DNA of 33,449 nucleotides from an uncultured Opitutia bacterium (GTDB lineage: Bacteria; Verrucomicrobiota; Verrucomicrobiia; Opitutales; Opitutaceae). Below, piece by piece: positions 10,523 to 17,532 of the stretch. The translations under genes and the position numbers were made by a program. The DNA is taken from NCBI GenBank assembly GCA_903900845.1, contig CAIUOU010000193.1, positions 1 through 33,449 on the forward strand, read 5' to 3'. The first letter of the stretch is position 1, and each line of letters begins with the position of its first letter. Below the pieces are notes generated by a model. It was given only the letters and a program-made list of their open reading frames with translations. It made no database searches and was not told where the DNA came from.

Positions 10523-13507
10523 TCAGGCGCCGTGACAGGCCTTGAACTTCTTGCCGCTGCCGCAGGGGCAAGGTTCGTTGCGGCCCACCTTGGGCGTCTC
10601 GCGACGGATCGTCACCGAAGGCAGCACAATCTCCTGCTCCGCCGGTGCGGAAGGGGCGGGCTCGGCGGCCGGCGCGGTCGCCGGCGCGGCGCCGGGACCA
10701 TCGGCCGGCCCCACCGCTTTCGCGGTGCGACTGAGTAACGCGAGCATGTTCTCGAAAGACTCGAGGTTGGAGGCGCTGCGAAACAGGCCGCTGCAAATCT
10801 GCAGCCGCACGTTGTTCATCAGTTCCTCGAAGTACTTGAACGCCTCGCCCTTGTACTCGACGAGCGGGTCCTTCTGGCCGTAGCTGCGCAAGCCGATGGA
10901 GCGCCGCAGTTCCTCCATCTCGGTGAGGTGTTCCTGCCAGTGGTGGTCGATCGCGTTGATGACCACGTAGCGCTCCAGCGCGCCCAGCGCCTCGCTCTGC
11001 TCGACCGATTCCTTGACGGCGTAGGCGTCGCGAATGCGAGTAATCAGACGCTGAACCACGGGCTCCGGATCGGCGCCCGCGAGATCCTCGGTCCGGCAGC
11101 CGATGGGAAAGTGCGAGTTGACCCATCCAACAACGCCCTCGAGGGCGGTCTGCGTGGGACCGCCCTTCTCGCCGAAGCCGGCGACGGCGAGACGTTGGTG
11201 CAGCTCCTCCCCAATTTGCTCGAAAATCGTCTCCTTCGGACGCTCCGCATGGATTGCGGCGTTGCGGATGCCGTAGACGACCTCGCGCTGCTGGTTGAGC
11301 ACGTCGTCGTACTGGAGCAGGCGCTTGCGGATGGAGTAGTTCTGCTGCTCGACCTTTTTCTGGGCGCTCTCGATGGAGCGGTTCAGCCAGGGATGCTCCA
11401 GCTCCTCTCCCTCCTGCATCGAGCCCTCCATGAGCTTGGAGGCGAGATTGCCCTGCAGGAACAGCCGCATGAGGTCGTCCTCGAGGGAAAGGTAAAACTT
11501 GGTGAGACCCGGATCGCCCTGGCGGGAGCAACGGCCGCGCAGCTGGCGGTCGATGCGGCGGGACTCGTGGCGCTCCGTGCCGATGACGTAAAGGCCGCCC
11601 AGATCACGCACCCCCTCGCCCAGTTTGATGTCGGTGCCGCGACCCGCCATGTTCGTGGCGATCGTCACCGCGCCGCGCTGGCCCGCGCGGGCCACGATGT
11701 CGGCCTCCTGCTGGTGGAACTTGGCGTTGAGGACCGTGTGAATGATGCCCGTGCGCTTGAGCATGCGCGACAGCACCTCGGAGGACTCGACGCTCACGGT
11801 GCCAACGAGCACGGGCTGGCCGCGCTTGTGGGCCTCCTCGATTTCCTTCACGACGGCGGCGTACTTGTCGCGGCGCGTCTTGAAGATCGAGTCGTTGCGG
11901 TCGACGCGGATGCAGGGCCGGTTCGTCGGGATGACCTGCACCGCGAGACGGTAGATGTCGTTGAACTCGGTCGCCTCGGTCTCCGCCGTGCCCGTCATGC
12001 CGGCGAGCTTCTCGTACATGCGGAAGTAGTTCTGGATCGTGATCGTCGCGTAGGTGCGCGTCTCGCGCTCGATGGCCACCCCCTCCTTGGCCTCCACGGC
12101 CTGGTGGAGGCCGTCCGACCAACGGCGGCCGGGCATGACGCGGCCGGTGTTCTCGTCGACGATCATCACCTTGCCGTCGGGCGTGACGACATACTCCACA
12201 TCGCGTTCGTACAGCGAATAGGCGCGCAGCAGTTGGGAGATCGCGTGGATCTCCTCGGACACCTCGGCGTAGCGCTGCTGGGAGACGAGCTTGCGCTCCT
12301 CCTTTTGCTCGGGGCTAAAGGCGGTATCGCGCTCGAGATCGGAAAATTCCGTGGCCAGGTCGGGCAGAACGAAGGCGTCCGGACTGTCGGGCCGCAGGCG
12401 GTTGCGGCCGATTTCGGTGAGGTCGGCCTGGTGCTGGCGCTCGTCGATGACGAAGAGCAGGTCCTCCTTGAGCTTGTAGAGCTCGTCCTTGTTGAGATCG
12501 GAATTGAGGTCCGTCTCCATGCGGTCCAGGAGCTTCCGCCAGGCGCCGTTCTCCATCAGCCGGAGGAGCTGCTTGTTCTTCGGGTGGCCCATCTTGACCT
12601 GCAGCATCTTGCGGGCGGCGGTCTCGCGGTCCTCGTTGGTGGCGGCGGTCCTCTCCAGCAACTCCTTCGCCTCGGTGACGATACGGTTGCAGAGGCGCAC
12701 CTGCTCGTTGACCAGACGGTCGACGCCGGGCTTGAGGCGGGTGAACGGCTGCTCGCGCTCGATCGGCGCGGGACCGGAGATGATCAGGGGTGTGCGGGCT
12801 TCGTCGACGAGGATGGAGTCGACCTCGTCAACGATGCAGAACCAGTGATCGCGCTGCACCTGGTCCTCGCGACGAGTGGCCATGCCGTTGTCGCGCAGGT
12901 AATCGAATCCAAACTCGCTGGCGGTGCCGTAAGTGATATCGCGCCCGTACATGTCACGGCGCACGTCAGGCGGCATCTGCTGCTGGATGCAGCCCACGCT
13001 GACGCCAAGGAAGTTGTACAGGTAGCCCATCCACTCGGAGTCGCGGCGGGCGAGGTAGTCGTTGACGGTGACGAGCTGGGTGTTCCGGGCCGCGAGGGCG
13101 TTGAGGTAGAGCGGCAATGTGGCGACGAGCGTCTTGCCCTCACCGGTCGCCATCTCGGAGATCCGCCCCTGGTGCAGGGCAAGGCCGCCGATGAGCTGGG
13201 TGTCAAAATGCACCATATCCCAACGCAGCTCGTGGTCGCAAACCACCACGTTACGCCCCACGAGACGGCGGGCCGCGTTCTTCACGGCTGCGAAGGCTTC
13301 GGGCAAGACGGCCTCCAGGGCGGCGTGCTTGTCGGAAGCGGCGGCGATCCGGGCCCGAAACTCCTCGGTTTTCGCCCGCAGCTGATCGTCGGACAGCGCC
13401 TGGAAGGAAACCTCCAGCTCGTTGATGCGCGCCACGACGGGACGCGCCTTCTCGAGGAACTTCTTGTAATGCCGGCCGGAGAAGCGCTTGAGCAGAAACG
13501 AGAGCAT
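10523..13507 (-). CDS. secA: Preprotein translocase ATPase SecA
   Basis: Motor ATPase that drives unfolded preproteins through SecYEG. The 994 residues begin [18 protein letters not shown]. The Walker A segment is MATGEGKT (119-126) in the first nucleotide-binding domain, and [21 protein letters not shown] carries the DEVD motif. The preprotein cross-linking domain, [31 protein letters not shown] and the C-terminal SEC-C zinc motif [14 protein letters not shown] follow in order. It is about 90 residues longer than E. coli SecA, mainly from a charged insertion in the cross-linking region (roughly residues 250-390), as in several non-proteobacterial SecAs, and an Ala/Pro-rich linker before the zinc motif. 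The frame stays open upstream to 14113, but the ATG at 13507 matches the family start and avoids the neighbouring gene. Confidence 0.97.
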
Positions 13508-13575
13508 GAAGGGCGGAAAGTGAGGTCCGGCCCACCCCTTGGCAAACGGCAAATCCGGCGGCGAGCCGCGGTCGG

Positions 13576-14502
13576 TCAGGAAGCGCCGCGGAAGTACGCG
13601 ATCGTGCGGGTCAGGCCCTCTTCCAACGGCACGGACGGCTCCCATTTCAGGACGCGACGGGCAAGCGCGATGTCGGGCTGACGCTGGCGGGGGTCGTCGG
13701 GAGGCAGCGGCTTGTGTACGATCCGGGAAGGGCCGCCGACCAGGCGGAGGGTGAGCTCGGCCAGCTGCAACATGGTGAACTCCGACGGGTTGCCGAGATT
13801 CATCGGACCCACGGTCTCGGTCTGATCCATGAAGCGGACGAACCCCTCGATGAGATCGTCGACGTAACAGAACGACCGTGTCTGGCTGCCGTCGCCGTAA
13901 ACCGTGAGGTCCTCGCCCCGCAGCGCCTGCACGATGAAATTCGAGACGACGCGCCCGTCCCCGGGGTGCATGCGCGGACCGTACGTGTTGAAGATGCGCA
14001 CCACCCGGATATCGACCTTGTTCTCGCGGTGGTAGTCGAAGAACAGCGTCTCGGCGCAGCGCTTGCCCTCGTCGTAGCAGGAACGCCGGCCGATCGGGTT
14101 GACGTTGCCCCAATACGATTCCGGCTGGGGATGGACGGCAGGGTCACCGTAGACCTCGCTGGTGCTCGCTTGGAACACCCGCGCCTTCACCCGCTTGGCC
14201 AGACCGAGGCAATTGATCGCCCCCATGACCGAGGTCTTCGTGGTCTTGATCGGGTTGTACTGGTAATGCGGAGGCGAAGCCGGGCAGGCCAGGTTGAAGA
14301 TGCGGTCGACCTCGAACTTGAAGGGATCGATGACGTCGTGGCGCACGAACTCGAACGAGGGGTGCGCCAAAAGATGGGCGATGTTCCGCTTCTGGCCGGT
14401 GAACAGGTTGTCGATGCAGATCACCTCGTGACCGTCCCGCAGCAGCCGGTCGCAAAGGTGGGAGCCGAGGAAACCGGCGCCGCCGGTCACGAGGATGCGC
14501 AT
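13576..14502 (-). CDS. UDP-glucuronate decarboxylase (UDP-xylose synthase type SDR)
   Basis: Extended short-chain dehydrogenase/reductase, 308 residues, predicted to convert UDP-glucuronate to UDP-xylose with tightly bound NAD. Visible are the NAD motif GGAGFLGSH (7-15), [18 protein letters not shown], the catalytic SCYDEGKR (YxxxK type), the [12 protein letters not shown] segment, and the [10 protein letters not shown] motif typical of UXS enzymes. The ATG at 14502 starts the Rossmann strand RILVTGG immediately. Likely role: nucleotide sugar for envelope or extracellular polysaccharide. It ends 68 bp before secA on the same strand; the link to SecA is probably only positional. Confidence 0.9.
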
Positions 14503-14563: not shown

Positions 14564-15100
14564 TCAGCTGAAAAAGGCCCACGCGCCCAGCGCGGCACCG
14601 AAAACCGAAAGCGCCAGCCCGGCGAAGAAGAAGGCGCGAGCCTTGGTCAGCAGGGTGATCGAGCAGAACACGACCGCGATCTGCAGGAAAATCTCCGCGC
14701 GGTCGTAGCGGTTGCCGCGGGCGTCGGCCTGCGCGGCAAGTTTCTTCGCCTCCTCGGCGTCGCGGAGAATCTGGTCGTTCTCCGTCTTGTACTCGGCGTT
14801 CTTGGCCGAGAGCCGCGCCTCGAGTTTGCCCATGGCCTCCTTCTGCGCTGCGGACGGGCTGCCGGCGTGTTCCACCTTCATCTGGTCCAGCATCAGCTCG
14901 TTCATGCCGGCGCGGATGCGCTTGGACTGGTACCAGGCGAAGCCGTTGGAAGCCTCGATCTGCTTTACGATCTTCTCGTTGTCCTGCTCGTTGCCTAGCG
15001 CGGACACAACCGCGAGCAGGATGGCAAGGATGGCGATGGTCAGTCCCACCTGCCGCTCCTGGCGGTCACGGGCGTCTTCAGGGATCTCGATGTCAGGCAT
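14564..15100 (-). CDS. DUF4337 family membrane protein
   Basis: Hypothetical inner-membrane protein of 178 residues. A short charged N-terminus ([15 protein letters not shown]) precedes a transmembrane helix ([19 protein letters not shown]). A long predominantly helical, charged central region (about 40-135) contains the family segment [10 protein letters not shown], and two C-terminal hydrophobic helices follow ([16 protein letters not shown] and [21 protein letters not shown]). The WYQ-x-K-x-I/R pattern and topology match DUF4337 proteins, whose function is unknown. Nothing in the neighbours suggests a specific role. Confidence 0.8.
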
Positions 15101-15166: not shown

Positions 15167-16312
15167 TCAACGGGCCAGACGTTCCATGGCCCCGGTCTCA
15201 TAACGCTCGATCCACGCCCGGTGCCACGACCCGAAGTCGCCGGCCTCAAGGTGCGCGCGCGCCTGAGCCATGAGATCGAGGTAGAAATGAAGGTTGTGCA
15301 GCGTGAGTAGCGTGCAACCTAGGATCTCGCCCGCCATCGTGAGGTGACGCAGATAGGCCCGGGAAAACCCCGCGGTGTAGTTCGACAACCCCTCGACCAG
15401 GGGCGACGGATCGCGCCGATAGCGCTCGTTGCGAAGGTTGAGGGGGCCGTCGGGGGTGAAGACCAGACCGTTGCGCGCGACGCGTGTGGGCAGCACGCAA
15501 TCGAACATGTCCACCCCGAGCGCGACCATCCGCAGCAGCTGCGGCGGCGTGCCCAGCCCCATGGTGTAGCGGGGTTTATTCACCGGCAGGAACGGAGTGG
15601 TGGCCCCGACCTGCTTGAGCATCTCCGGCTCGGGCTCGCCGACGCTCACGCCGCCCACCGCGTACCCGGGAAAGTCCATCGCCCCCAGTTCCTCCGCCGC
15701 CTGCCGCCGCAGGTCGTCGAACGTCGATCCCTGCACGATCGCGAAGACATGATGTCCCGCGGCGAGGAAGCCGCTTTCCTCCGCGAGGCGCCGGCATTCC
15801 CGCGCCCAACGCGCGCTGCGCGCCACCGCCCGCACGCACTCGTCGCGCTCACAGGGCCACGGAGGGCACTCGTCGAGGACCATCGCGATGTCGCTGCCGA
15901 GATCGCGCTGGATCCCCATCACCTCCGCCGGCCCCAGGAACAACCGGGCGCCGTCGAGATGCGAGGCGAAGGCGACGCCGTCTTCGCGCACGTCGCGCAG
16001 CTTCGCGAGGGAGAACACTTGGAAGCCGCCGCTGTCCGTGAGGATCGGTCCGTCCCAGCCCATGAATCCGTGCAGACCGCCGAGTTCGCGGATGAGCGGG
16101 GCGCCCGGCCGCAGGCCGAGGTGGTACGTGTTGCCGAGGATAATCTGCGCGCCGATGTCCCGTAATTGCCGGGGCGTGACCGATTTCACCGTGCCCTGCG
16201 TCCCCACCGGCATGAAAATCGGGGTCTCCACCAGACCGTGCCGGGTACGCAGCCGCCCGCGGCGCGCCGCCGTCGCGGTGTCGGTGAGCAGAAGTTCGAA
16301 GGCCCCGGCCAT
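15167..16312 (-). CDS. tgt: tRNA-guanine transglycosylase (queuosine pathway), zinc cysteines lost
   Basis: Exchanges guanine-34 of GUN-anticodon tRNAs for the queuosine precursor preQ1. The 381 residues show the catalytic base region DSGGFQVF (Asp93), DEC at 147-149, IVQG (Gln194), GGVSVGEP and the nucleophile Asp271 in [11 protein letters not shown]. Cys149 and Val224 match the bacterial preQ1-type pocket rather than the eukaryotic queuine pocket. The zinc site is abnormal. In E. coli Tgt the ligands are C302, C304, C307 and H333; here they align to Gly308, Ser310, Thr313 and His339. Only the histidine remains, though the flanking FSRAYLRHL is intact. The usual IVQGG also reads IVQGS. No queuosine-synthesis gene lies nearby. 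It diverges from the pabA-type gene. Confidence 0.93.
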
Positions 16313-17070: not shown

Positions 17071-17532
17071 ATGCGCTGCCCGAAATGCACTTCGGTCGAA
17101 GACAAGGTGATCGACTCGCGTATCAGCCGGGAAGGCGGCACCATCCGCCGGCGCCGGGAGTGCCTGGAGTGCGGTTACCGCTACAGCACCACCGAGACCG
17201 TGGTCCGCGACGGGCTAGTCGTCATCAAGCGTGACGGCCGGCGGGAGGATTTTGACCGCGACAAGCTCACCCGCGCCGTGCGGGCCGCCTGCCACAAGCG
17301 CCCGGTCGACGCCGAGCAGATCACCATGCTGGTGGAGGACGTGATGGACGCGCTGGAAGCGCAGTTCGACAAGGAGATCCCGTCCAGCGCCATCGGCGAG
17401 GGCGTCATGCAGCGCCTCCGTGGTGTCGATCAGGTCGCTTACGTGCGTTTCGCCAGCGTCTACAAGGAGTTCCGCGACGTCGCCGAATTTGTCGACGAGA
17501 TCAGCGCTCTTGGGCGCAAGCCCCCGGCCTGA
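17071..17532 (+). CDS. nrdR: Ribonucleotide reductase transcriptional repressor NrdR
   Basis: Zinc-ribbon and ATP-cone regulator that senses ATP/dATP and represses ribonucleotide reductase genes by binding paired NrdR boxes. The 153 residues show the zinc ribbon cysteines C3, C6, C31 and C34 and the conserved RRRRECLECGYRYSTTE core. An ATP-cone follows at about 46-136 (VVIKRDGRREDFDRDKL onward). The sequence is canonical in length. Its probable targets, nrdB-nrdA, lie 3 kb away on the opposite strand, with candidate boxes at 25130-25181. It is followed after one base by an unrecognised gene and may share its transcript. Confidence 0.96.
   Translation: MRCPKCTSVEDKVIDSRISREGGTIRRRRECLECGYRYSTTETVVRDGLVVIKRDGRREDFDRDKLTRAVRAACHKRPVDAEQITMLVEDVMDALEAQFDKEIPSSAIGEGVMQRLRGVDQVAYVRFASVYKEFRDVAEFVDEISALGRKPPA

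Follow-up and report, generated by a model that had tools for sequence, protein, structure and literature searches.

The zinc need of the tRNA-guanine transglycosylase (Tgt) of Escherichia coli reportedly goes back to work by Chong in 1995, and the UniProt rule for the Tgt family assigns zinc conditionally. A published account describes Tgt as the signature enzyme of queuosine (Q) and as requiring zinc for its activity, with QueA and QueG acting after it (PMC9508795). For the enzyme of Zymomonas mobilis, another source names Asp280 as the nucleophile and Asp102 as the general acid/base (PMC4425180). No paper on a zinc-less Tgt was found among the matches listed in a literature search, most subscription papers being outside its coverage. 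Here we describe a Tgt that has lost the cysteines of the zinc site and kept the catalytic residues. With a probability of roughly 0.8, we consider it an active housekeeping enzyme free of the zinc site, in which the zinc knuckle has turned into a metal-free loop.

The tgt gene and its product

The window, a contig stretch of 33,449 nucleotides from an uncultured Opitutia bacterium, contains on its reverse strand (positions 15,167–16,312) an open reading frame for a tRNA-guanine(34) transglycosylase of 381 amino acids. It is the sole Tgt detected in the genome (G000; 4.40 Mb, 205 contigs, 96% complete, one Tgt-family match). A gene for a DUF4337 protein (14,564–15,100, reverse strand) lies directly downstream on the same strand. 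Scans of the gene region or the window for promoter-like sites, tRNAs, Rfam families and repeats yielded nothing relevant to the loss of the zinc site.

The protein matched the Pfam TGT domain (PF01702) with an E-value of 1.2e-147 and passed the equivalog cut-off (306.75) of NCBIfam TIGR00430 (tRNA guanosine(34) transglycosylase) with 449.5 bits. It matched three NCBIfam families, and the model for DpdA, the protein of DNA 7-deazaguanine insertion (NF041059), was not among them (no match at E 0.001). Three of the 52 sequences in the alignment used for structure prediction did match NF041059, with a best E-value of 3.8e-5. Pairwise dN/dS of tgt against 17 relatives, two of these from the same genome, was 0.037–0.177, and by these sequence comparisons the gene is under purifying selection. 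The product of another Opitutales bacterium (L118) was 88% identical to the window Tgt. At 96% identity, the protein of a further genome (L075) had a motif region identical to that of the window.

Loss of the zinc-binding cysteines

The reading frame was open, without stops, and its translation lacked the C-x-C-x-x-C motif, as the sequence-only reading had stated. From the complete site of CxCxxC plus His, only His339 was present (15,296–15,298, reverse strand), the fourth ligand position, which a residue comparison of 217 sequences identified as kept. Residues 300–318 contained neither cysteine nor histidine. Many relatives have GLDNYTCRNFSRAYL at the knuckle; the window protein instead has Leu309, Asn311 and Ala314 at the positions of the first, second and third cysteine (Cys1 to Cys3; 15,371–15,388, reverse strand). 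A one-residue deletion relative to the TCRNF of relatives follows (Ala314-Gly315-Phe316; 15,365–15,373, reverse strand).

This register rests on the alignment with relatives, which places the gap after Ala314. The sequence-only reading had equated the cysteines with Gly308, Ser310 and Thr313. These residues are indeed encoded at 15,374–15,391, but do not correspond to the cysteines: they were counted back from His339 without a gap, so that the register was one residue off. The same reading took IVQGS, in place of IVQGG, for a second change, which it is not. IVQGS is the consensus of the 52-sequence alignment and hence ordinary; it occurred in 21 of the 27 zinc-type loci compared, against two with IVQGG, and QGS stands at the same place in solved zinc-type Tgts.

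The residues that had been listed as retained (His339, Asp93, Asp147, Gln194 and Asp271) were all present. Asp93, Asp147, Gln194, Gly220 and Asp271, comprising the catalytic Asp pair and the base pocket, were invariant in all 217 sequences. By homology with Z. mobilis Tgt, Asp271 (15,500–15,502, reverse strand) would be the nucleophile, corresponding to Asp280, and Asp93 (16,034–16,036, reverse strand) the general acid/base, corresponding to Asp102. The covalent chemistry would thereby proceed as usual in the homologues.

The host does not seem to avoid structural zinc in general: two other proteins encoded in the window keep their Cys motifs. NrdR (17,071–17,532, forward strand) has an intact zinc ribbon, and SecA (10,523–14,113, reverse strand) an intact C-terminal Cys/His motif.

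Distribution and phylogeny of the motif loss

The survey covered 217 loci with a Tgt domain; the motif was absent from 125 and present in 92. Some genomes were represented twice (e.g., by L072 and L119). Loci found with the Pfam model were its best scorers, so that the counts below are not prevalences; 40 lower-scoring family members were picked by hand as an offset. The Bacteroidota sample consisted of the best 80 of at least 592 stretches, found with peptides of the window protein from outside the zinc motif. Clade labels were partly taken from the tree and from named neighbours (families f10 and f14 as Verrucomicrobiales, L134 as Opitutales, L166 as Bacteroidota).

The motif was missing from all rows of Opitutales Tgt1 (78/78) and of Verrucomicrobiales (21/21), and from 23 of the 24 Bacteroidota/Balneolota rows. 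The other PVC rows (46/46) and the remaining rows (35/35) had it, as did 10 of the 13 Tgt2-like rows, the other three being without it. L146, labelled Bacteroidota, has retained the motif and falls with Ignavibacteriales on the tree. None of the 40 added family members had CxCxxC either: 29 showed the shortened form, nine had Cys at position 3 and two had Asn there. The sequence-only reading had proposed a survey of Verrucomicrobiota for a clade-wide loss; such a loss was found, and it extends to another order and another phylum.

A sequencing or assembly artefact, for which one might point to the draft state of the assembly (205 contigs), is as good as refuted by these relatives. The frame is open, as first described, the same motif recurs in L075 at 96% identity, and the loss is seen in many other genomes. 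An Opitutales Tgt1 with the full motif, which would have pointed to a local artefact, did not turn up: CxCxxC was missing in 118 of the 118 Opitutales Tgt1 sequences examined. The loss of the zinc site in the window Tgt is real.

The zinc state was mapped on an unrooted tree of 165 rows, of a quick kind, built with the motif columns removed and with rows at least 88% alike or shorter than 300 residues left out. Four changes were needed, and the starred branches force four; with shuffled labels the mean was 55. The pattern is not due to chance. Support for the zinc-less groups was 100 for Opitutales Tgt1, 87 for Verrucomicrobiales and 100 for L113–L115 (families f6 and f9). The zinc-less Bacteroidota formed a group of 21 rows at 99; the fork (87) that joins it to the Balneolota row is unresolved. 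Since distant Tgts widely carry the motif, the changes on this unrooted tree are probably losses rather than gains. From these alignments, it thus seems that several bacterial groups gave up this zinc site independently of one another and kept the catalytic parts.

In the genomes of L113, L114 and L115, the sole Tgt found falls, on a long branch, with the second-Tgt lineage; it is devoid of the zinc motif. Changed residues at the otherwise invariant positions 224, 226, 249 and 251 were seen in three zinc-less rows, taken to be these, on account of which the substrate of this Tgt may differ.

The state of the individual ligands varied. Cys3 was kept in 5 of 22 rows from the genus of the window, in 29 of 30 from the rest of the family, in 20 of 22 from the rest of the order and in none of three named rows. 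Erosion looks stepwise: Cys1 and Cys2 would have been lost early in Opitutales Tgt1, and Cys3 later, in some lineages, with the deletion. Cys at position 2 was found in four Bacteroidota rows and in L134, which has a long branch and was assigned to Opitutales from the tree. The substitutes at the lost motif differed between clades (HPHVA, NYVSS and others), and some Verrucomicrobiales had His-Pro-His or His-Pro-Leu-Cys in the motif. As a candidate for a new metal site, the His-Pro-His of family f10 was set aside because it was not constant, HPF and HPS forms occurring too.

At position 339, each of the 92 zinc-type sequences had His; of the 125 zinc-less ones, 114 had His and 11 had Gln (seven rows of family f10, all from genus g37, and the Bacteroidota rows L167, L172, L180 and L196). 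A change of His to Gln in zinc-less rows is what one expects from a lost metal role followed by drift, as far as can be judged from the residues. The seven g37 loci (L208, L210, L217 and L223–L226) had none of the four zinc ligands: the segment was free of Cys, and Gln stood in for His. Genus g37 may be Akkermansia. In the one locus named as Akkermansia muciniphila (L126), the cysteines were absent and the His kept.

The retention of His339 in all 78 Opitutales Tgt1 rows is not by itself explained by a complete loss of its metal role. It is an argument for a ligand-swapped metalloprotein, in which a metal would still be bound by His339 together with Ser310, Asn311, Glu306, Cys333 or water. The co-occurrence of Cys3 with the His in many relatives, the His-Pro-His or His-Pro-Leu-Cys of some Verrucomicrobiales and the lone Cys of rows such as L134 and the four Bacteroidota rows point the same way. 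However, with no Cys or His in residues 300–318, substitutes that vary between clades, no conserved Cys at position 333, and g37 devoid of both Cys and His, we regard a ligand swap as improbable. Cys333 as a replacement ligand was ruled out, the position varying among relatives.

Queuosine pathway and second Tgt

The host genome had one match each for QueA, QueG and QueF. In a sample of 200 family genomes, QueA was found in 186 and a Tgt match in 193. The presence of QueA says little about whether Tgt is active, since it was also found in six of the seven sampled family genomes that gave no Tgt match. These six were 99% (G404), 94% (G453) and 65–84% complete (G416, G438, G457 and G488), and either assembly gaps or real loss may lie behind them. 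QueA was present in 20 of the 21 named genomes whose Tgt is zinc-less, and 19 of the 21 had a single Tgt-family match; what else matched in G570 and G574 was partial and weak. A further source describes Akkermansiaceae and some Bacteroides as typically able to synthesize Q (PMC11130926), which fits active zinc-less Tgts there.

A degenerate protein without transglycosylase activity or with a changed role, Q being absent or made otherwise, would agree with the zinc requirement reported in PMC9508795 and with the existence of QueA in genomes without a Tgt match. It is very unlikely given the invariant catalytic positions, a dN/dS far below 1, and the presence of QueF, QueA and QueG in a genome with no other Tgt found. 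The sequence-only reading had left it at an enzyme either stabilized in another way or changed in role. With no second tgt found and queF, queA and queG present, we favour the former and not the latter.

Relatives of the host may carry a second Tgt. Two Tgt matches were found in 12 of the 27 genomes of the genus, and the second copies inspected (L067, L081, L082, L085–L087, L089, L090, L116 and L117) kept CxCxxC in open reading frames of 687–758 amino acids. In L081, the protein chosen for testing, TGT was fused to a Methyltransf_30 domain (PF05430) at the C-terminal end. We take this domain to resemble the MnmC-type wobble-uridine methyltransferase, and on the strength of this resemblance the second Tgt may combine two wobble-base modifying activities in one protein.

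A second canonical tgt in the same genome, named in the sequence-only reading as a refutation, was not found in G000 (96% complete, 205 contigs). A zinc-type copy could still have escaped assembly in a genome of that quality and make the Q, leaving the window copy an auxiliary. Second copies with the motif occur in relatives, as stated above, and only the zinc-type second Tgt was seen in one congener (G550, 85% complete). Against this stand three complete or nearly complete genomes whose only Tgt lacks CxCxxC and which have QueA. G091, a family member on a single contig (100% complete), has a Tgt that keeps Cys3 (L054); those of G080 (100% complete) and G143 (99%) have none of the three cysteines. 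These genomes suggest that relatives can do without a second Tgt, and a hidden copy in the host has only a slim chance.

Predicted structure

The window protein was modelled with AlphaFold2 on an alignment of 52 of the 81 available sequences, with L123 as a zinc-type control. Such models carry no metal, give no measure of stability and may show the family fold whatever the stability. The window protein reached a mean pLDDT of 91.6, and the control one of 90.6. In 10-residue blocks, pLDDT was 91–97 over residues 291–350 of the window model, including 91–92 at 301–320; weaker stretches were residues 40–42 (below 50) and the blocks at 31–50 and 91–110 (means of 74–77). Residues 301–317 were coil in the window model, in contrast to the control, which had a short helix (320–324) at the knuckle and block pLDDT of 97–98 in 301–330. 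The structure prediction that had been proposed for the zinc region thus returned a confident fold, with coil in place of the knuckle helix. The model matched solved Tgts throughout, the top match being 4hqv (370 residues, 1.4 Å, Z 54.3).

A column-by-column comparison of zinc-type and zinc-less clades established no compensating substitution. One candidate was Arg265 to Leu, Leu being present in 60 of the 84 zinc-less rows and in 4 of the 81 zinc-type rows; since there are only four independent pairs among the candidates listed, no significance is possible for candidates of this type.

We favour an active enzyme free of the zinc site, serving as the housekeeping Tgt of the host and replacing guanine-34 of GUN-anticodon tRNAs with preQ1. 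Its C-terminal subdomain would do without structural zinc, the helix-bearing knuckle having become a metal-free loop that is one residue shorter. This loop would be held by packing on the following helices, where His339 lies. Enzyme activity, absence of zinc and loop packing are all predictions.

Comparison with known Tgts

The window Tgt is a real and widespread zinc-site-free variant of a known enzyme, presumably active and without metal. The structural zinc of Tgt would then be dispensable, having been shed on four or more occasions (Opitutales Tgt1; Verrucomicrobiales, including the A. muciniphila locus; Bacteroidota with Balneolota; and the second-Tgt lineage of two families in the order of the window). 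We think it fairly likely that these losses produced a broad class of active zinc-free Tgts, in which partly parallel packing changes, such as Arg to Leu at 265, replace the role of zinc. Should zinc-free enzymes prove typical of Bacteroidota and of two orders of Verrucomicrobiota, the zinc would be a scaffold that can be exchanged. Connections made between the supply of zinc and Q34 would then not have to hold for Tgt in these groups, and the losses that nature has repeated would offer a set of cases in which to study what takes the place of a structural zinc site.

Within the same domain family, the second Tgt of Opitutales shares the TGT domain and 43–48% identity with the window protein. 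Unlike it, the second Tgt keeps CxCxxC, is longer and carries a C-terminal methyltransferase domain (L081). The zinc-less Tgts of Verrucomicrobiales and Bacteroidota/Balneolota have the catalytic residues and the lost motif in common with the window Tgt; their losses are changes on the tree separate from that of the window, with different substitutes. In seven g37 and four Bacteroidota rows, the His has also become Gln, unlike in the window Tgt.

The three cysteines were present in the five solved chains aligned, three of the Z. mobilis type and two further ones; PDB 10fa/10fb is, we assume, an E. coli-like Tgt. With the zinc-type Tgt of Z. mobilis (e.g., 1pud), the window Tgt shares the fold, the catalytic Asp pair and the base-pocket residues, as well as Tyr320 and His323 after the knuckle, at about 47% identity in structural alignments. 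It differs by the absence of every Cys ligand and by a knuckle shortened by one residue.
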